Positions 43,083 through 49,185 of a DNA stretch of 64,000 nucleotides are shown here, one piece after another. This stretch comes from Anaerolineae bacterium (GTDB taxonomy: Bacteria > Chloroflexota > Anaerolineae > 4572-78 > J111), in the NCBI GenBank assembly GCA_023382535.1, contig JAHDWA010000050.1, positions 15,701-79,700 of the forward strand, written 5' to 3'. The translations under genes and the position numbers were made by a program. The notes beneath the pieces are model-generated. The model was not told the origin of the DNA. It made no database searches and worked only from the letters and a program-made list of their open reading frames with translations. Numbering within the stretch: the stretch's first letter is position 1; the number at the start of each line of letters is the position of its first letter.

Positions 43083-44960
43083 TTATAGCGAAAAATAGAA
43101 TATTGCTCCCTGCTCGACCGCCCCCTCGGCCCAGACCCGCCCGCCGTGGCGTCGAATGATCCGCTGGACCGTGGCCAGGCCGATGCCGGTTCCGGGGAAC
43201 TCGGCCGGGGTATGCAGGCGTTCGAACGCGCCGAAGAGCTTATTGGCATAGGCCATGTCAAACCCCGCTCCATCATCGCGCACAAAATAGGCCGGCTGGC
43301 CCTGGTACAAGACGGTCCCGAATTCAATCCGGGCTGAGGGATGTTTGGCTGTGAACTTCCAGGCGTTGCCCAACAGGTTTTCCAGGACCACCCGGATCAA
43401 CCCAATATCCGCCTGGGCCATGATACTCTCACCAATCAGAAATTCGACGGCCCGGTCCGGGTTTGCCTGGCGCAGGTCTGCTGCTATAGCCCGGGCCAGC
43501 TCGCTCAGGTTGACCGGCTCCGTCCGTATCTCGCTGCGGGTCAGGCGAGAGAGCGCCAGCATGTCGTCAATCAGGTGGCCCATGCGCTGGGCGGCTGCAC
43601 GCACCCGCCGCAAGTACTCCTGGCCTTCGGCACCCAATCGGTCGCCATAATCTTCCAGCAGCGCCTGGCTGAAGCCGTCAATGCCGCGCAGCGGAGTCCG
43701 CAAATCGTGGGAGACAGAGTAGGCGAAGGCGGCCAGTTCCTTATTGGAGGCTTCGAGCTGGGCCGTACGTTCAACAACCCGCTGCTCAAGCTCCGTGTTT
43801 AGTTTGTGAATCTCCGCTTCGGCCTGTTTGCGCTCGGTGATATCACTCATAATCGTCAGCATGCACAACTCATTGTTGAGTTGGATCATTTCGAGGGATA
43901 AGCTAACCTGGCGTACCTCGGCTGATTTACGCCGAATCTCCAGTTCAAAGTCACGCACAAAGCCCTGCTGCTGCAAGTAGGTAACGGCGTGCTGGCGGTC
44001 AGCGGGATTCATAAATATATTGAGGGCCAGTGAATTTTCGCCGACCACTTCGGCCCGGCTATAGCCAGAAATGTTCTGCCAACTGTCGTTGACCTCGATA
44101 ATCAGCCCATCGGCCAGCCGGCTAATAATAAGCGCATAAGGGCTGGCGCGAAAGGCTTTGGCAAAACGCTCTTCAGATTGGCGCAGCGTCTCTTCGGCTT
44201 GCCGGCGTTCGCTGATTTCTCGTTCCAGGTCCGCTTTGGAGGCCATGATAGCGTTCAAATTGGCCGCCATCCGGTTGAAGGCCTGGCCCAAGGCGCCGAT
44301 CTCATCAGCCCGCTGATCCGGCAGAGTAAAATCGAGGTTGCCGGAACCAATCATTTTCGTTCCGGCTTCAAGCTCAGAGAGGGCGTTCAAGGTCCGCCGG
44401 TAAATCAGCCAATAATTGGTTACAAAATAAGCGCCAAAAATGCCGATCAGGGCAAAAATGAGCGCCGTATTCGTTTGCTTCAACCGGTCGGCCTGATCTC
44501 GTAATTTCTGGGAGAGCCGCGCCGCCTCAAAACTCATCCCCTGGTTCTGCACCGCCATCCGGCTCCAGGGAACCTGGATCAAAGTTAGATCAACAGGGCC
44601 TTGAGGTTCCAGGGTTGAGACGACGCCGCTAAAAACCGCTCTTAAACGCTGTTGGTCGGCCTTGAGCGTAGCGACGATCGCTCCTTGTTCCGGGCTAGCC
44701 GACTCCAGCCGGGCCAGGTCATTTGAGAGCGCCGCGAACTTGGCTTCCCAGCGGGCCCGCTGCTGGCTCTCCTGGTAAAGCAGATATTCATTGGACAAAT
44801 AGCCCAGCTCGCTGATTTCCCGCTCAATATTATGGGCAGTCTCTTCCTGCTGGGCGAGCCGCTCCACCTGATGATTGGTGACAAGCAGGGACATCGCCAT
44901 CAGGATCAGGATGAATCCAAAAATGACCAGGGTGATGATAAACTGAGTTCTAATTTTCAT
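43083..44960 (-). CDS. Membrane histidine kinase with HAMP and PAS domains
   Basis: A 625-residue sensor. TM1 about 7-27, an extracytoplasmic helical domain about 30-165 (four-helix-bundle-like), TM2 about 167-187, HAMP about 190-240, PAS about 265-385. HisKA contains SVSHDLRTPLRGIDGF (phospho-acceptor His about 410). The ATPase domain has NLLGNAWKFT, DDGAGFDM and GTGIGLATV. The final 230 residues are highly similar to those of the sensor at 47074. It lies 10 bp downstream of a binding-protein gene on the same strand, suggesting that this protein presents a ligand to the extracytoplasmic domain. The truncated receiver gene downstream was its likely partner. Confidence 0.9.
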   Translation of the reverse strand: MKIRTQFIITLVIFGFILILMAMSLLVTNHQVERLAQQEETAHNIEREISELGYLSNEYLLYQESQQRARWEAKFAALSNDLARLESASPEQGAIVATLKADQQRLRAVFSGVVSTLEPQGPVDLTLIQVPWSRMAVQNQGMSFEAARLSQKLRDQADRLKQTNTALIFALIGIFGAYFVTNYWLIYRRTLNALSELEAGTKMIGSGNLDFTLPDQRADEIGALGQAFNRMAANLNAIMASKADLEREISERRQAEETLRQSEERFAKAFRASPYALIISRLADGLIIEVNDSWQNISGYSRAEVVGENSLALNIFMNPADRQHAVTYLQQQGFVRDFELEIRRKSAEVRQVSLSLEMIQLNNELCMLTIMSDITERKQAEAEIHKLNTELEQRVVERTAQLEASNKELAAFAYSVSHDLRTPLRGIDGFSQALLEDYGDRLGAEGQEYLRRVRAAAQRMGHLIDDMLALSRLTRSEIRTEPVNLSELARAIAADLRQANPDRAVEFLIGESIMAQADIGLIRVVLENLLGNAWKFTAKHPSARIEFGTVLYQGQPAYFVRDDGAGFDMAYANKLFGAFERLHTPAEFPGTGIGLATVQRIIRRHGGRVWAEGAVEQGAIFYFSL

Positions 44961-44970
44961 ACGTCTCGGG

Positions 44971-47015: not shown

Positions 47016-47073
47016 ACTTTTAATACCTCCTCGCGTTTCATTGCCTGCACTCACTTTTTGAGGCTTTACTCTC

Positions 47074-49185
47074 TTACAAGGTGAAATAGAAAGTTGCCCC
47101 CTGCTCGACCGCGCCCTCGGCCCAGACTTCTCCGCCGTGGCGATGAATGATCCGCTGGACCGTCGCCAGGCCAATCCCGGTCCCGGCAAATTCTGCCGGG
47201 GTGTGCAGCCGTTGGAATGGGCCGAAGAGCCTGTCGGCGTAAGCCATGTCGAAACCCGCCCCGTCATCGCGCACAAAATAGGCCGGCCGGCTGTTGTGGG
47301 CGATGGTCCCAAATTCAATCCGGGCGGAGGGACGTTTGGCTGTAAATTTCCAGGCGTTGCCGAACAGGTTTTCCAAAGCGACCCGGATTAATTGTGCATC
47401 CCCCTGGGCCACTATATCGCCGGCAATGACGAACTCAACCGGGCGATCCGGTTCGGCCTGGCGCAGTTCCTCCGCCACAACTTGGGCCAGTTCGCTTAGG
47501 TTGATCCTTTCGCGACGCATCTCGCTGCGCGTCAGGCGAGAGAGAGCCAGCAGGTCGTCAATGAGGTGGCCCATGCGCTGGCTGGCCGCCCGCACCCGCC
47601 GCAGGTAGTTTTGACCTTCATTGTCCAGTTTGTCGGCGTAGTCTTCCAGCAGGGCCTGGCTGAAGCCGTCAATGCCGCGCAGAGGCGCGCGCAGGTCGTG
47701 GGAGACAGAGTAGGCGAAGGCTTCCAGTTCCTTGTTGGTGGCTTCCAATTGAGCCGTGCGCTCGACGACTCTCTGTTCCAGTTCTTGATTGAGCTGCCGG
47801 ATCGTCTCCTCGGCCTGTTTGCGTTCGGAAATGTCTTCGATGGTGGCAATGGAGCGGAGATACTCACCCCCGGCGTCACGCACGGCCGAAACTGTCACAT
47901 GCACCCAACACGGCGAACCGTCGCGCTTCAGGTAGCGCTTTTCGTAGTCGAAGCGGTCGCGTTGCCCCTTTATTAACTCCATGTTCATCTTATCACTGCG
48001 GTCCCAATCCTCCGGGGCCGTCAGGTCATGCACGGTAATCCCGAGCAGTTCTTCCCGCCGGTAGCCCAGGATCTCCAGCACCCGGTTGTTGGCGGCAATG
48101 AAACGGCTTTCCTCCGTATCCACTTCAACAATGCCCACGCCGGCATTGTCGAAGATGGCGCGGAGGCGCTGTTCACCGGCTCGCAGGGCTGCCTCGGCCT
48201 GTCTGCGTTCGGTGATATCGTGAATAATGGAATACAGCAGCTTTTTGCCCTGAAACTCGATGGGGCCGCTAAAAACTTCAACCTCGCGTTCTTCGCCACT
48301 TGCCAGGCGGTGGCGAAAGAAAAATTGACGGCGCTGTTCTTGTTTGGCCCGTTCCATCTCGGCAAACACCTCGTCGCGGCTGAGTTGGTTGATGTCGGAA
48401 ATTTTCAGGCCGGTTATTTGGGCGTGAGTGTAGCCGTAAAAGGCGCAGGCGGCCGGATTGGCGTTAATGATGTCGCCGGTCTGAGGGTCCATGAGCAGCA
48501 TAACGGAGTGATTGTTCTGGAACAGGCTGCGATACCGTTCTTCGCTTTGGCGCAGCGAGTCCATCAACGTGTCGCGTTCCGCCAACGACCGGGCCAGCTT
48601 GATATTGCTGTAGCTCAAGAGGGAGATCATGTGGGCCAGCTTCATCAAAAAGGCAATCCCATTATCCACGGCGTCCCGGCTCAGACGCGGAACTTGTTCC
48701 AGCGCGGCCATATACGCTGCTTCATCAAAGCCGTACTGCCTGGCCTGGGAACGGAAGAGTTCCTCATCCAGCGGCTCATCCTCAAAGAAGAATTGACCCG
48801 AAAAGAGGCTGCCGACATGTTGGCCGCCGACCACGATAGGTGTGGCGATGTCCCACATGTTATTTCTGCACTTATACAGTTTGAATTCTCCCGGAGGAAT
48901 GTCTCTGGAAAGTTGGGTGTCGCTTTCCAGGCAGTGCTCGCAGGTCTCAGGATGGACCCGGTGGAATCTTGTGCAAATCTGCTGCCAACCCACGCCAACC
49001 AGCACCCGGCCTTTGAGATCGATGATGCTCATTGGAATGTGAGCCAGGGTATAGAAATTGTCCATAAGCGACTGGATCGCCCGGACATCAATGAGATCGG
49101 CCAGTTCCAGGTTCCCAATGTCCCCTTCAGGGGAAAGGATGCTGTCCAGTTTTCGTCTGACCCGTTCTTCACTTTCCCGTAGCAC
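47074..49185 (-). CDS. PocR/PAS histidine kinase (C-terminal part of a split sensor)
   Basis: A 703-residue kinase with GTG start at 49185 and no good ribosome-binding site. A PocR sensory domain (about 28-200) contains CTRFHRVHPETCEHCLESD and YKCRNNMWDIATPIVVGG, with its conserved cysteines. Two PAS domains follow (about 215-335 and 340-465), then HisKA (SVSHDLRAPLRGIDGF) and an ATPase domain (NLFGNAWKFT, DDGAGFDM, GTGIGLATV). Its phase joins the 3' end of the gene at 49029-50147 through a frame break near 49225. Undamaged, the protein would be about 1020 residues with membrane helices supplied by the upstream part. Intact in itself, so it might still be expressed as a soluble kinase. Confidence 0.85.
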   Translation of the reverse strand: MLRESEERVRRKLDSILSPEGDIGNLELADLIDVRAIQSLMDNFYTLAHIPMSIIDLKGRVLVGVGWQQICTRFHRVHPETCEHCLESDTQLSRDIPPGEFKLYKCRNNMWDIATPIVVGGQHVGSLFSGQFFFEDEPLDEELFRSQARQYGFDEAAYMAALEQVPRLSRDAVDNGIAFLMKLAHMISLLSYSNIKLARSLAERDTLMDSLRQSEERYRSLFQNNHSVMLLMDPQTGDIINANPAACAFYGYTHAQITGLKISDINQLSRDEVFAEMERAKQEQRRQFFFRHRLASGEEREVEVFSGPIEFQGKKLLYSIIHDITERRQAEAALRAGEQRLRAIFDNAGVGIVEVDTEESRFIAANNRVLEILGYRREELLGITVHDLTAPEDWDRSDKMNMELIKGQRDRFDYEKRYLKRDGSPCWVHVTVSAVRDAGGEYLRSIATIEDISERKQAEETIRQLNQELEQRVVERTAQLEATNKELEAFAYSVSHDLRAPLRGIDGFSQALLEDYADKLDNEGQNYLRRVRAASQRMGHLIDDLLALSRLTRSEMRRERINLSELAQVVAEELRQAEPDRPVEFVIAGDIVAQGDAQLIRVALENLFGNAWKFTAKRPSARIEFGTIAHNSRPAYFVRDDGAGFDMAYADRLFGPFQRLHTPAEFAGTGIGLATVQRIIHRHGGEVWAEGAVEQGATFYFTL

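Follow-up and report, generated by a model that had tools for sequence, protein, structure and literature searches.

For many sensor kinases the signal is not known. In XylFII-LytS-YesN, the xylose-sensing system of Clostridium, a binding protein (SBP) adjoins a kinase with an external four-helix bundle; XylFII is a sugar-type SBP that lies beside xylose transport genes. The module analysed here has the same arrangement of SBP and kinase, but its SBPs are of the NMT1 type, no transporter is near, tandem SBPs occur, and the sensor identity is 11%. According to excerpts of PMC9769921, XylFII touches helices H3 and H4 of LytS. TorT-TorS-TorR likewise joins a signalling binding protein to an all-helical kinase sensor (excerpts of PMC8534201 and PMC5908839), although its SBP and sensor belong to different families, and TorS and TorT were absent from the PDB sequence matches. 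AioX-AioS-AioR (arsenite) is also an SBP-kinase-regulator set whose SBP signals and does not transport (PMC5908839, in part); unlike our SBPs, AioX is PhnD-like, binds oxyanions and adjoins regulated enzyme genes. CuaD-CuaS-CuaR (cellobiose), in which a lipoprotein SBP binds the external domain of the kinase by two-hybrid assay (PMC10384115, in part), resembles the module as well, but has a sugar SBP, a larger sensor that includes beta sheets, and transport genes in an operon of their own. The sensors of NarQ and Adeh_2942 share the four-helix fold at 14-18% identity, NarQ also having transmembrane (TM) segments and HAMP; in contrast to the module as proposed, NarQ binds nitrate directly. Because SBP-triggered kinases are an already established kind in the available portions of PMC9602780, PMC10384115 and PMC5908839, the suggestion in the initial annotation of a new type of two-component input is unsupported.

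A binding-protein and kinase island

The locus lies in the window, the whole 64,000-nucleotide stretch of Anaerolineae DNA that was analysed. The ORF list and Pfam bear out the gene order first read by eye, which runs on the minus strand from a PocR kinase through SBP1 and SBP2 to a receptor kinase. The features are as follows, the TM limits of the receptor kinase being read from the sequence by eye.

42956..43069, minus: receiver-like ORF, shortened, directly past the receptor kinase (ORF list; likeness by eye)
43083..44960, minus: SBP-linked receptor kinase, 625 aa, with TM1, external four-helix sensor, TM2, HAMP, PAS, HisKA and HATPase_c (Pfam; AlphaFold2)
44487..44876, minus: external four-helix-bundle sensor, residues 29-158 (model, structure matches, alignments)
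44535..44582, minus: conserved part of the bundle tip where helix 4 begins, residues 127-142, with consensus QVSWSRMAVQ.QG (entropy)
44745..44807, minus: conserved part of the bundle tip where helix 1 ends and helix 2 begins, residues 52-72, with consensus L.YLSNDYLLY.ESQQ..RW (entropy)
44971..45975, minus: SBP2, binding protein of the NMT1/SsuA-TauA type whose N-terminus carries a hydrophobic helix (PF09084, 5.2e-27; AlphaFold2)
45987..47015, minus: SBP1, binding protein, paralogue of SBP2 (PF09084, 6.1e-31)
47074..49185, minus: PocR-PAS-PAS-HisKA-HATPase kinase part (Pfam)
49029..50159, minus: membrane segment and two PAS domains (TM-PAS-PAS) in another frame, apparent 5' part of the PocR kinase gene (ORF list, Pfam)
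50238-50660, minus: lone receiver (Pfam)
50866-51597, minus: NarL-type regulator (Pfam)
51479-53557, minus: HisKA_3 kinase (Pfam)

SBP2 and the receptor kinase are separated by 10 bp. Upstream of the island, signalling genes extend to 53557. A scan of the window against Rfam at gathering scores gave no match. The receiver-like ORF starts 13 bp past the receptor kinase and ends after 37 codons, and the ORF containing it had no Pfam match; among relatives, 11 of the 29 scanned same-strand next genes after the receptor carry a receiver domain. No constant target gene was seen beside the module.

SBP1 and SBP2 are paralogues, as had been noted, with 48% identity over 341 columns. The ATG at 47015, preceded by GAGGAGG, is more likely the start of SBP1 than the ORF start at 47318. 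Both proteins qualify as NMT1/SsuA-TauA-type, their PF09084 scores of 95.6 and 108.4 bits standing far above the curated cut-off of 20.5, and the AlphaFold2 model of SBP2 (pLDDT 90.6) has the two-lobed fold, with TauA/SsuA as the nearest structures. In NCBIfam the SBPs match the SsuA family below its cut-off, and the other matches are general kinase/PAS ones.

Judged from the family, a small ligand that is polar or anionic is probable. TauA contacts taurine through Q30, E106, T132 and D205 (PMC6906117, in part); the equivalents differ in SBP1 and SBP2 and vary across the clade, which speaks against a taurine-specific TauA, as read from an alignment at about 29% identity. The pocket-equivalent positions average 2.60 bits of entropy against a protein mean of 1.63 bits when E106 falls at position 119, as placed by MAFFT (matched by 94 or 78 of 20000 random sets), 2.40 bits when it falls at 120, as placed by BLAST (459 of 20000), and 2.45 bits without the two least certain positions (1053 of 20000). 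The pocket thus appears more variable than the protein as a whole, with a stable sign and a strength that varies with the placement of E106.

Linkage in relatives

The lack of conserved SBP-kinase linkage that would have spoken against the earlier proposal did not show up in a genome survey of relatives. Starting from the receptor, we found 59 of 62 unique sensors to be immediately preceded by an SBP on the same strand, with a gap of at most 20 bp in 45 of these 59 pairs. This set leaves out sensors with fewer than 120 core-stretch residues, below 45 bits or starting past model position 60, and holds three pairs more than 90% identical. The filter drops one frameshifted receptor, that of G267 (L052/L053/L120); it lacks an SBP, and with it the count would be 59/63. 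An SBP was present in none of nine control regions with other HAMP proteins. Two of the controls, L140 and L145, gave weak whole-sensor matches (48 and 59 bits) and lack an SBP; they would pass the 45-bit filter and were kept as controls, far below the receptor-finding cut of 1e-20, and the linkage is 59/65 if they and the dropped G267 receptor are counted. Starting from the SBP in 297 genomes, 35 of 41 clade SBPs lead into a receptor of at least 50 bits, directly or via a tandem SBP, and three more lead into another signalling protein. A receptor stands without an SBP at L119 and at the frameshifted L120/L052, and an SBP without a receptor at L037 and L138; each receptor has one to five SBPs. 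Such near-obligate linkage is the gene-neighbourhood trait of SBP-triggered histidine kinases. The pairing occurs in scattered bacteria and archaea, and because it recurs in this way the SBPs are most likely detachable 'noses' that inform the kinase. The best 120 of 424 sensor relatives carry no Pfam SBP domain, so no natural SBP-sensor fusion was seen among them.

Distances were compared for 56 of the 59 pairs (SBP ORF of at least 300 aa), 42 of them with complete receptors. In these 42, sensor distances correlate with those of the neighbouring SBP at r 0.76, against 0.35 for the last 230 residues of the receptor itself. In the core clade alone (32 receptors) the values are 0.39 and 0.32, and a mirror-tree analysis on L001-L034 alone gave 0.28. 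At 14 loci, agreement with the receptor was higher for the second SBP (0.58) than for the adjacent one (0.19). As the correlation is strong only with divergent receptors included, we regard it as supporting and not decisive. A 66-pair correlation of r 0.80 was replaced, since it appears to include a truncated duplicate (L118).

The 13 archaeal sensors need two changes on the sensor tree. A single archaeal clade is not rejected (p-AU 0.384), and repeated transfer between domains is therefore not claimed. A search of 72,556 plasmid records with the sensor (E 1e-15) gave no match. L015, an Elusimicrobia locus, clusters with a sensor from Deltaproteobacteria, which may reflect an error in binning.

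Transporters, sensor fold and competing explanations

The island indeed contains neither a permease nor an ABC ATPase. The four permeases of the window are parts of two other importers (14852-18412 and 32766-38838), both of which have a binding protein of their own, from a family different from that of SBP1/SBP2. TauC/SsuC probes matched none of the window ORFs of at least 80 aa; they detect NitT/TauT-type permeases only and miss these four. Probes for six permeases, namely TauC, SsuC and the dpp-type and sugar-type pairs of the window, found no match in the examined flanks of any receptor locus, and TauC/SsuC matches were obtained beside four of six ordinary NMT1 SBPs as a positive control. 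Five receptor loci contain ABC ATPases at distances of 1.2 to 9.4 kb from the SBP; the closest of them, at L004, is part of a MacB/HlyD export set located behind a transposase. Linkage of the SBPs to a TauB/TauC-type ATPase and permease is hence absent in the window and in the examined receptor-locus flanks. The SBPs could nevertheless feed a NitT/TauT-type importer encoded elsewhere, with the linked kinase sensing the loaded SBP to regulate uptake. The available part of PMC9602780 describes SBPs as commonly having such a dual use, and a TauC homologue (E 1e-5) is found elsewhere in 27 of 30 receptor-bearing genomes, only weak ones in G108 and G281; in G018 a TauC-like permease lies 12.5 kb from its own module. 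Yet three genomes (G003, G007 and G013, which may be incomplete) yielded none, the flanks are permease-free, and the SBP clade has a conserved C-terminal stretch past the end of the alignment with ordinary NMT1 SBPs, which reaches model position 212-286 of 339. We consider this explanation unlikely.

The receptor model (residues 1-240; pLDDT 89, pTM 0.68) predicts a four-helix bundle for the external part. Its top VIA-align match is LytS_N of the XylFII-LytS complex, on which the predicted sensor superposes at 1.3 Å over 120 residues with 11% identity, fitting the LytS-type fold; four-helix bundles reach high Z readily, a designed bundle giving 16.7. LytS_N was not listed in a profile search of PDB sequences. 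Against Pfam at E up to 1, the window sensor matched six families, HAMP alone above cut-off, with TarH, CHASE3 and 4HB_MCP absent; among 25 of 46 families listed for 17 sensors, TarH appeared in six (best E 0.018) and CHASE3 in two (0.023). The tip is conserved, with mean entropies of 0.95 bits (residues 52-62), 1.43 (63-72) and 1.21 (127-142) beside 1.31 for HAMP. This tip includes R70, W71, W132 and R134 and might bind a small anion directly, in the manner of NarQ and nitrate, the SBP then being an accessory, for instance a scavenger, transcribed along with the kinase; NarQ also has the best Foldseek E-value (2.3e-05). However, the closest structural fit is the SBP-bound LytS, and direct binding leaves the linkage of 59 sensors to an SBP unexplained, which makes it slightly less probable still.

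DNA identity between the 3' ends of the two kinases (43083-43850 and 47074-47840) is 77%, and protein identity over their last 250 aa is 79%, so the estimate of about 80% for these paralogous C-termini was correct, and the two kinases may share receivers. That the PocR and HAMP kinases, whose genes adjoin, both read the same SBPs is very improbable, since 43083-44960 is the sole match to the SBP-linked sensor profile in the window and the PocR ORF appears to be the 3' portion of a longer gene broken by a frameshift, with its 5' part at 49029-50159. The PocR kinase is not supported as an SBP partner and would have another input. Of the earlier proposal that the SBPs are dedicated ligand sensors for the kinases, the dedication is favoured by the linkage, the permease-free receptor loci and the SBP-binding type of sensor fold, while the pairing with both kinases found no support.

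Proposed working and meaning

Taken together, SBP1, SBP2 and the receptor kinase likely form a three-component sensor that has no transporter and is triggered by binding proteins. The NMT1-type SBPs, which are probably membrane-anchored, would catch a small extracellular molecule. Once loaded, the SBP would dock on the external four-helix bundle of the kinase, in the manner of XylFII on LytS, and the resulting shift would travel via TM2 and HAMP and alter the output of the kinase to a receiver protein. As the receptor family looks constant, the SBP pocket appears variable and one to five SBPs accompany each receptor, the choice of ligand would lie in the SBP. We tentatively extend this to a ligand-agnostic receptor front end common to archaea and bacteria, a possibility we hold at somewhat below even chances: a near-constant four-helix receptor would read whichever tandem SBP is loaded, as an OR gate, with specificity changed by swapping or duplicating SBPs, output by swapping the cytoplasmic half, and no role in transport.

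In summary, the search for the input of such a kinase can turn to a small soluble protein, the SBP, whose ligand would give the signal of the kinase. If the picture of a constant receptor with variable SBPs is true, the module would be a natural plug-in input for sensor building, and for methanogens, Methanoperedens and subsurface Chloroflexota it would offer a signal route that can be tested.

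Gene order in the island

We found the order kinase (PocR), binding protein (SBP), binding protein, kinase on the minus strand (49185-43083), just as the initial annotation had described it, among the following features:

53557-51479, minus: HisKA_3 kinase (Pfam)
51597-50866, minus: NarL-type regulator (Pfam)
50660-50238, minus: lone receiver (Pfam)
50159-49029, minus: membrane-PAS-PAS ORF (ORF and Pfam reading)
49185-47074, minus: PocR-PAS-PAS-HisKA-HATPase kinase (Pfam)
47015-45987, minus: SBP1 (Pfam and start-codon reading)
45975-44971, minus: SBP2 (Pfam)
44960-43083, minus: kinase 2, the receptor (Pfam)
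43069-42956, minus: truncated receiver-like ORF (ORF reading)

Sequence comparison bore out the claimed paralogy of SBP1 and SBP2 (48% identity), and the 3' ends of the two kinase genes, said to be about 80% identical, share 77% identity in DNA and 79% over the last 250 amino acids. Because the PAS ending runs on in another frame, 49029-50159 and 47074-49185 look like one kinase gene in two frames, split within the PAS region; the split may be a real frameshift or an assembly error. The receiver-like ORF (42956-43069) begins 13 bp past the receptor and stops after 37 codons, at the end of the convergent GH2 mannosidase-like gene (40389-42959), possibly through a rearrangement. Elsewhere in the window, a type III polyketide synthase (chalcone-synthase-like), a methyltransferase and an FAD-binding oxidoreductase lie consecutively at 22094-25276, perhaps a small biosynthetic cluster, and 28136-42959, with a GH3, an oligopeptide-type importer, a LacI regulator and the GH2 gene, resembles a cluster for taking up sugar oligomers through an 'oligopeptide'-type transporter.

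Linkage of binding protein and receptor genes

Linkage was suspected when the same contigs apparently recurred among the relatives of both SBP and sensor. Genome contigs were scanned with the sensor alignment, giving 34 loci, and further phylum samples were scanned with the sensor at a cut-off of E 1e-20. We compared 62 unique full-length sensors, and in 59 a clade SBP was encoded directly upstream on the same strand; this held for 39 of the 42 close relatives (at least 240 bits) and for all 20 divergent ones. The median gap was 11 bp, with 20 bp or less in 45 of the 59 and a 4-bp overlap in five. SBP copies per receptor were one in 43 loci, two in 11, three in four and five in one, which are minimum numbers because L048-L088 carry flanks of 1.5 kb only; in the last case (L027, 4404-9989) five tandem paralogues precede a single receptor. 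As to the exceptions, L015 has before the receptor a mere SBP remnant, its last 20 or so codons (2763-2825), itself preceded by another kinase end, either an SBP deletion or an assembly chimera; L121 has the order SBP, receptor, receptor; and L119 has a receptor without SBP. A frameshifted receptor in G267, left out of the 62 as incomplete, likewise lacks one. In L119 and L120, from two genomes of the Chloroflexi-phylum sample, the receptor without SBP (frameshifted in one) has a further, large kinase-like protein encoded after it.

Counting from the SBP, a survey of 297 genomes gave 41 places at E 1e-50, each judged singly. In 35 a same-strand receptor of at least 50 bits followed, directly or via a tandem SBP; in three (L039, L135, L136) another signalling protein followed directly, its sensor not recognised; and three (L037, L138, L130) had neither, L130 being close to the end of its contig and having a receptor fragment on the opposite strand. 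No clade-type SBP occurred in nine control regions, from these genomes, around other proteins whose match lies mainly in HAMP. Two of the regions (L140, L145) match weakly along the entire sensor (48 and 59 bits), so the sensor does have very distant relatives that lack an SBP. Six ordinary NMT1 SBPs were taken from these genomes for comparison; four had TauB/TauC homologues alongside, and none was seen beside that of L045. The sixth, a non-clade NMT1 SBP in L046 (2204-7334), is followed by a dCache-HAMP-PAS-GAF-HD_5 receptor, a second type of pairing with a different sensor.

In the phylum samples, the sensor was found in at least 5/400 genomes for G003 (which holds the Chloroflexi MAG locus L003), 10/294 for G001 (Methanoperedens), and 12/297 and 5/148 for G009 and G012 (each with loci from Deltaproteobacteria MAGs), two samples that overlap. 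Even with these counts as lower bounds, 6 to 18 candidates per genome having been scored, the module is rare and patchy in the sampled phyla.

The initial annotation had also claimed that no permease accompanies the SBPs, and this held. No TauC/SsuC-type permease was detected among window ORFs of at least 80 aa (E. coli TauC and SsuC probes, E 1e-5). The window's two other importers (14852-18412 and 32766-38838) use separate SBPs (families SBP_bac_1/8 and SBP_bac_5) and permeases of types invisible to these probes; the four permeases were therefore added and all fetched loci rescanned, and the six probes gave no match in any receptor locus within flanks of 1.5 to 10 kb. The linkage without adjacent permeases looked for in relatives was found. 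ABC ATPases are present in five receptor loci (L004, L020, L027, L030, L123), where the distance to the SBP ranges from 1.2 to 9.4 kb; the nearest (L004) is part of an export set of MacB/HlyD type that a transposase gene separates from the SBP. A TauC homologue occurs somewhere in 27 of 30 receptor-bearing genomes (only weak ones in two of these; in G018, 12.5 kb from the module), and none was found in G003, G007 and G013, genomes that may be incomplete.

Sensor, pocket and outputs

Residues 1-260 of kinase 2 as query returned 424 relatives, the best 120 of which share 49-63% identity and carry varied outputs (HisKA, HisKA_3, SpoIIE, receivers). Against Pfam, HAMP alone exceeds the cut-off in the window sensor region, and across 17 sensors it is the sole family common to all (best other E-value 0.00067, 25 of 46 families listed). 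The end of helix 1 (0.95 bits) and start of helix 4 (1.21) are more conserved than HAMP (1.31), and the start of helix 2 almost as much (1.43); from the helix order in the predicted model, these stretches should form the membrane-distal end of the bundle.

TauA pocket residues Q30, E106, T132, W176 and D205, from an excerpt of PMC6906117, were transferred to the SBPs at about 29% identity. In 56 SBPs of the core clade, the five equivalent positions were more variable than the mean (2.60 versus 1.63 bits overall), a value matched or exceeded by 94 of 20000 random sets; with E106 shifted by one residue, as BLAST places it, the mean was 2.40 bits (459 of 20000). Pocket position 147 was unremarkable (rank 109 of 298). 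When twelve stretches were compared, 285-300 (DQSLILAMRDEARWMI) varied least (0.68 bits). A variable pocket and a constant stretch would fit a variable ligand and a constant partner. One protein, P0046 (517 aa), has SBP-like sequence in its N-terminal part too, possibly a partial double binding protein.

Sensor distances correlated with those of the adjacent SBP at r 0.79 in 56 pairs, versus 0.30 for the receptor's last 230 available residues; the values were 0.76 and 0.35 for 42 complete receptors, and alike (0.39 and 0.32) for 32 complete core receptors. Co-divergence of sensor and SBP lies mainly between clades.

Among 49 receptors, window included, we counted HATPase_c in 44, HisKA in 24, HisKA_3 in 8, HisKA_2 in 4, HWE in 3 and SpoIIE in 1; the 21 families found at E 1e-5 included neither a chemoreceptor nor a GGDEF domain. 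A same-strand ORF begins within 250 bp downstream of 31 of 49 complete receptor ORFs; leaving out one SBP and one receptor, 11 of the 29 scanned contain a receiver domain. Thirteen archaeal sensors were placed among bacterial ones in the sensor tree (2 changes), and a single archaeal clade was not rejected (p-AU 0.384).

Standing of the module

Receptor activation by SBPs as such is already established. Excerpts of published work call it a general phenomenon involving 13 or more SBP families (PMC9602780), place many SBP-responsive kinases beside their own sbp gene (PMC11113362), and describe CuaS bound by CuaD (PMC10384115), the signalling SBPs AioX and TorT (PMC5908839), helices H3/H4 of LytS as the XylFII site (PMC9769921), and all-helical sensors including TorS, NarQ and Adeh_2942 (PMC8534201). 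Our literature search, covering mostly open-access work, found no paper on this NMT1-SBP/four-helix family. The proposed mechanism, in which the loaded SBP would dock on the four-helix sensor of the kinase, appears well supported by genomics and the predicted fold. Collectively, the SBP-receptor modules form a real, scattered family within an already known class of sensors, undescribed as far as searched.
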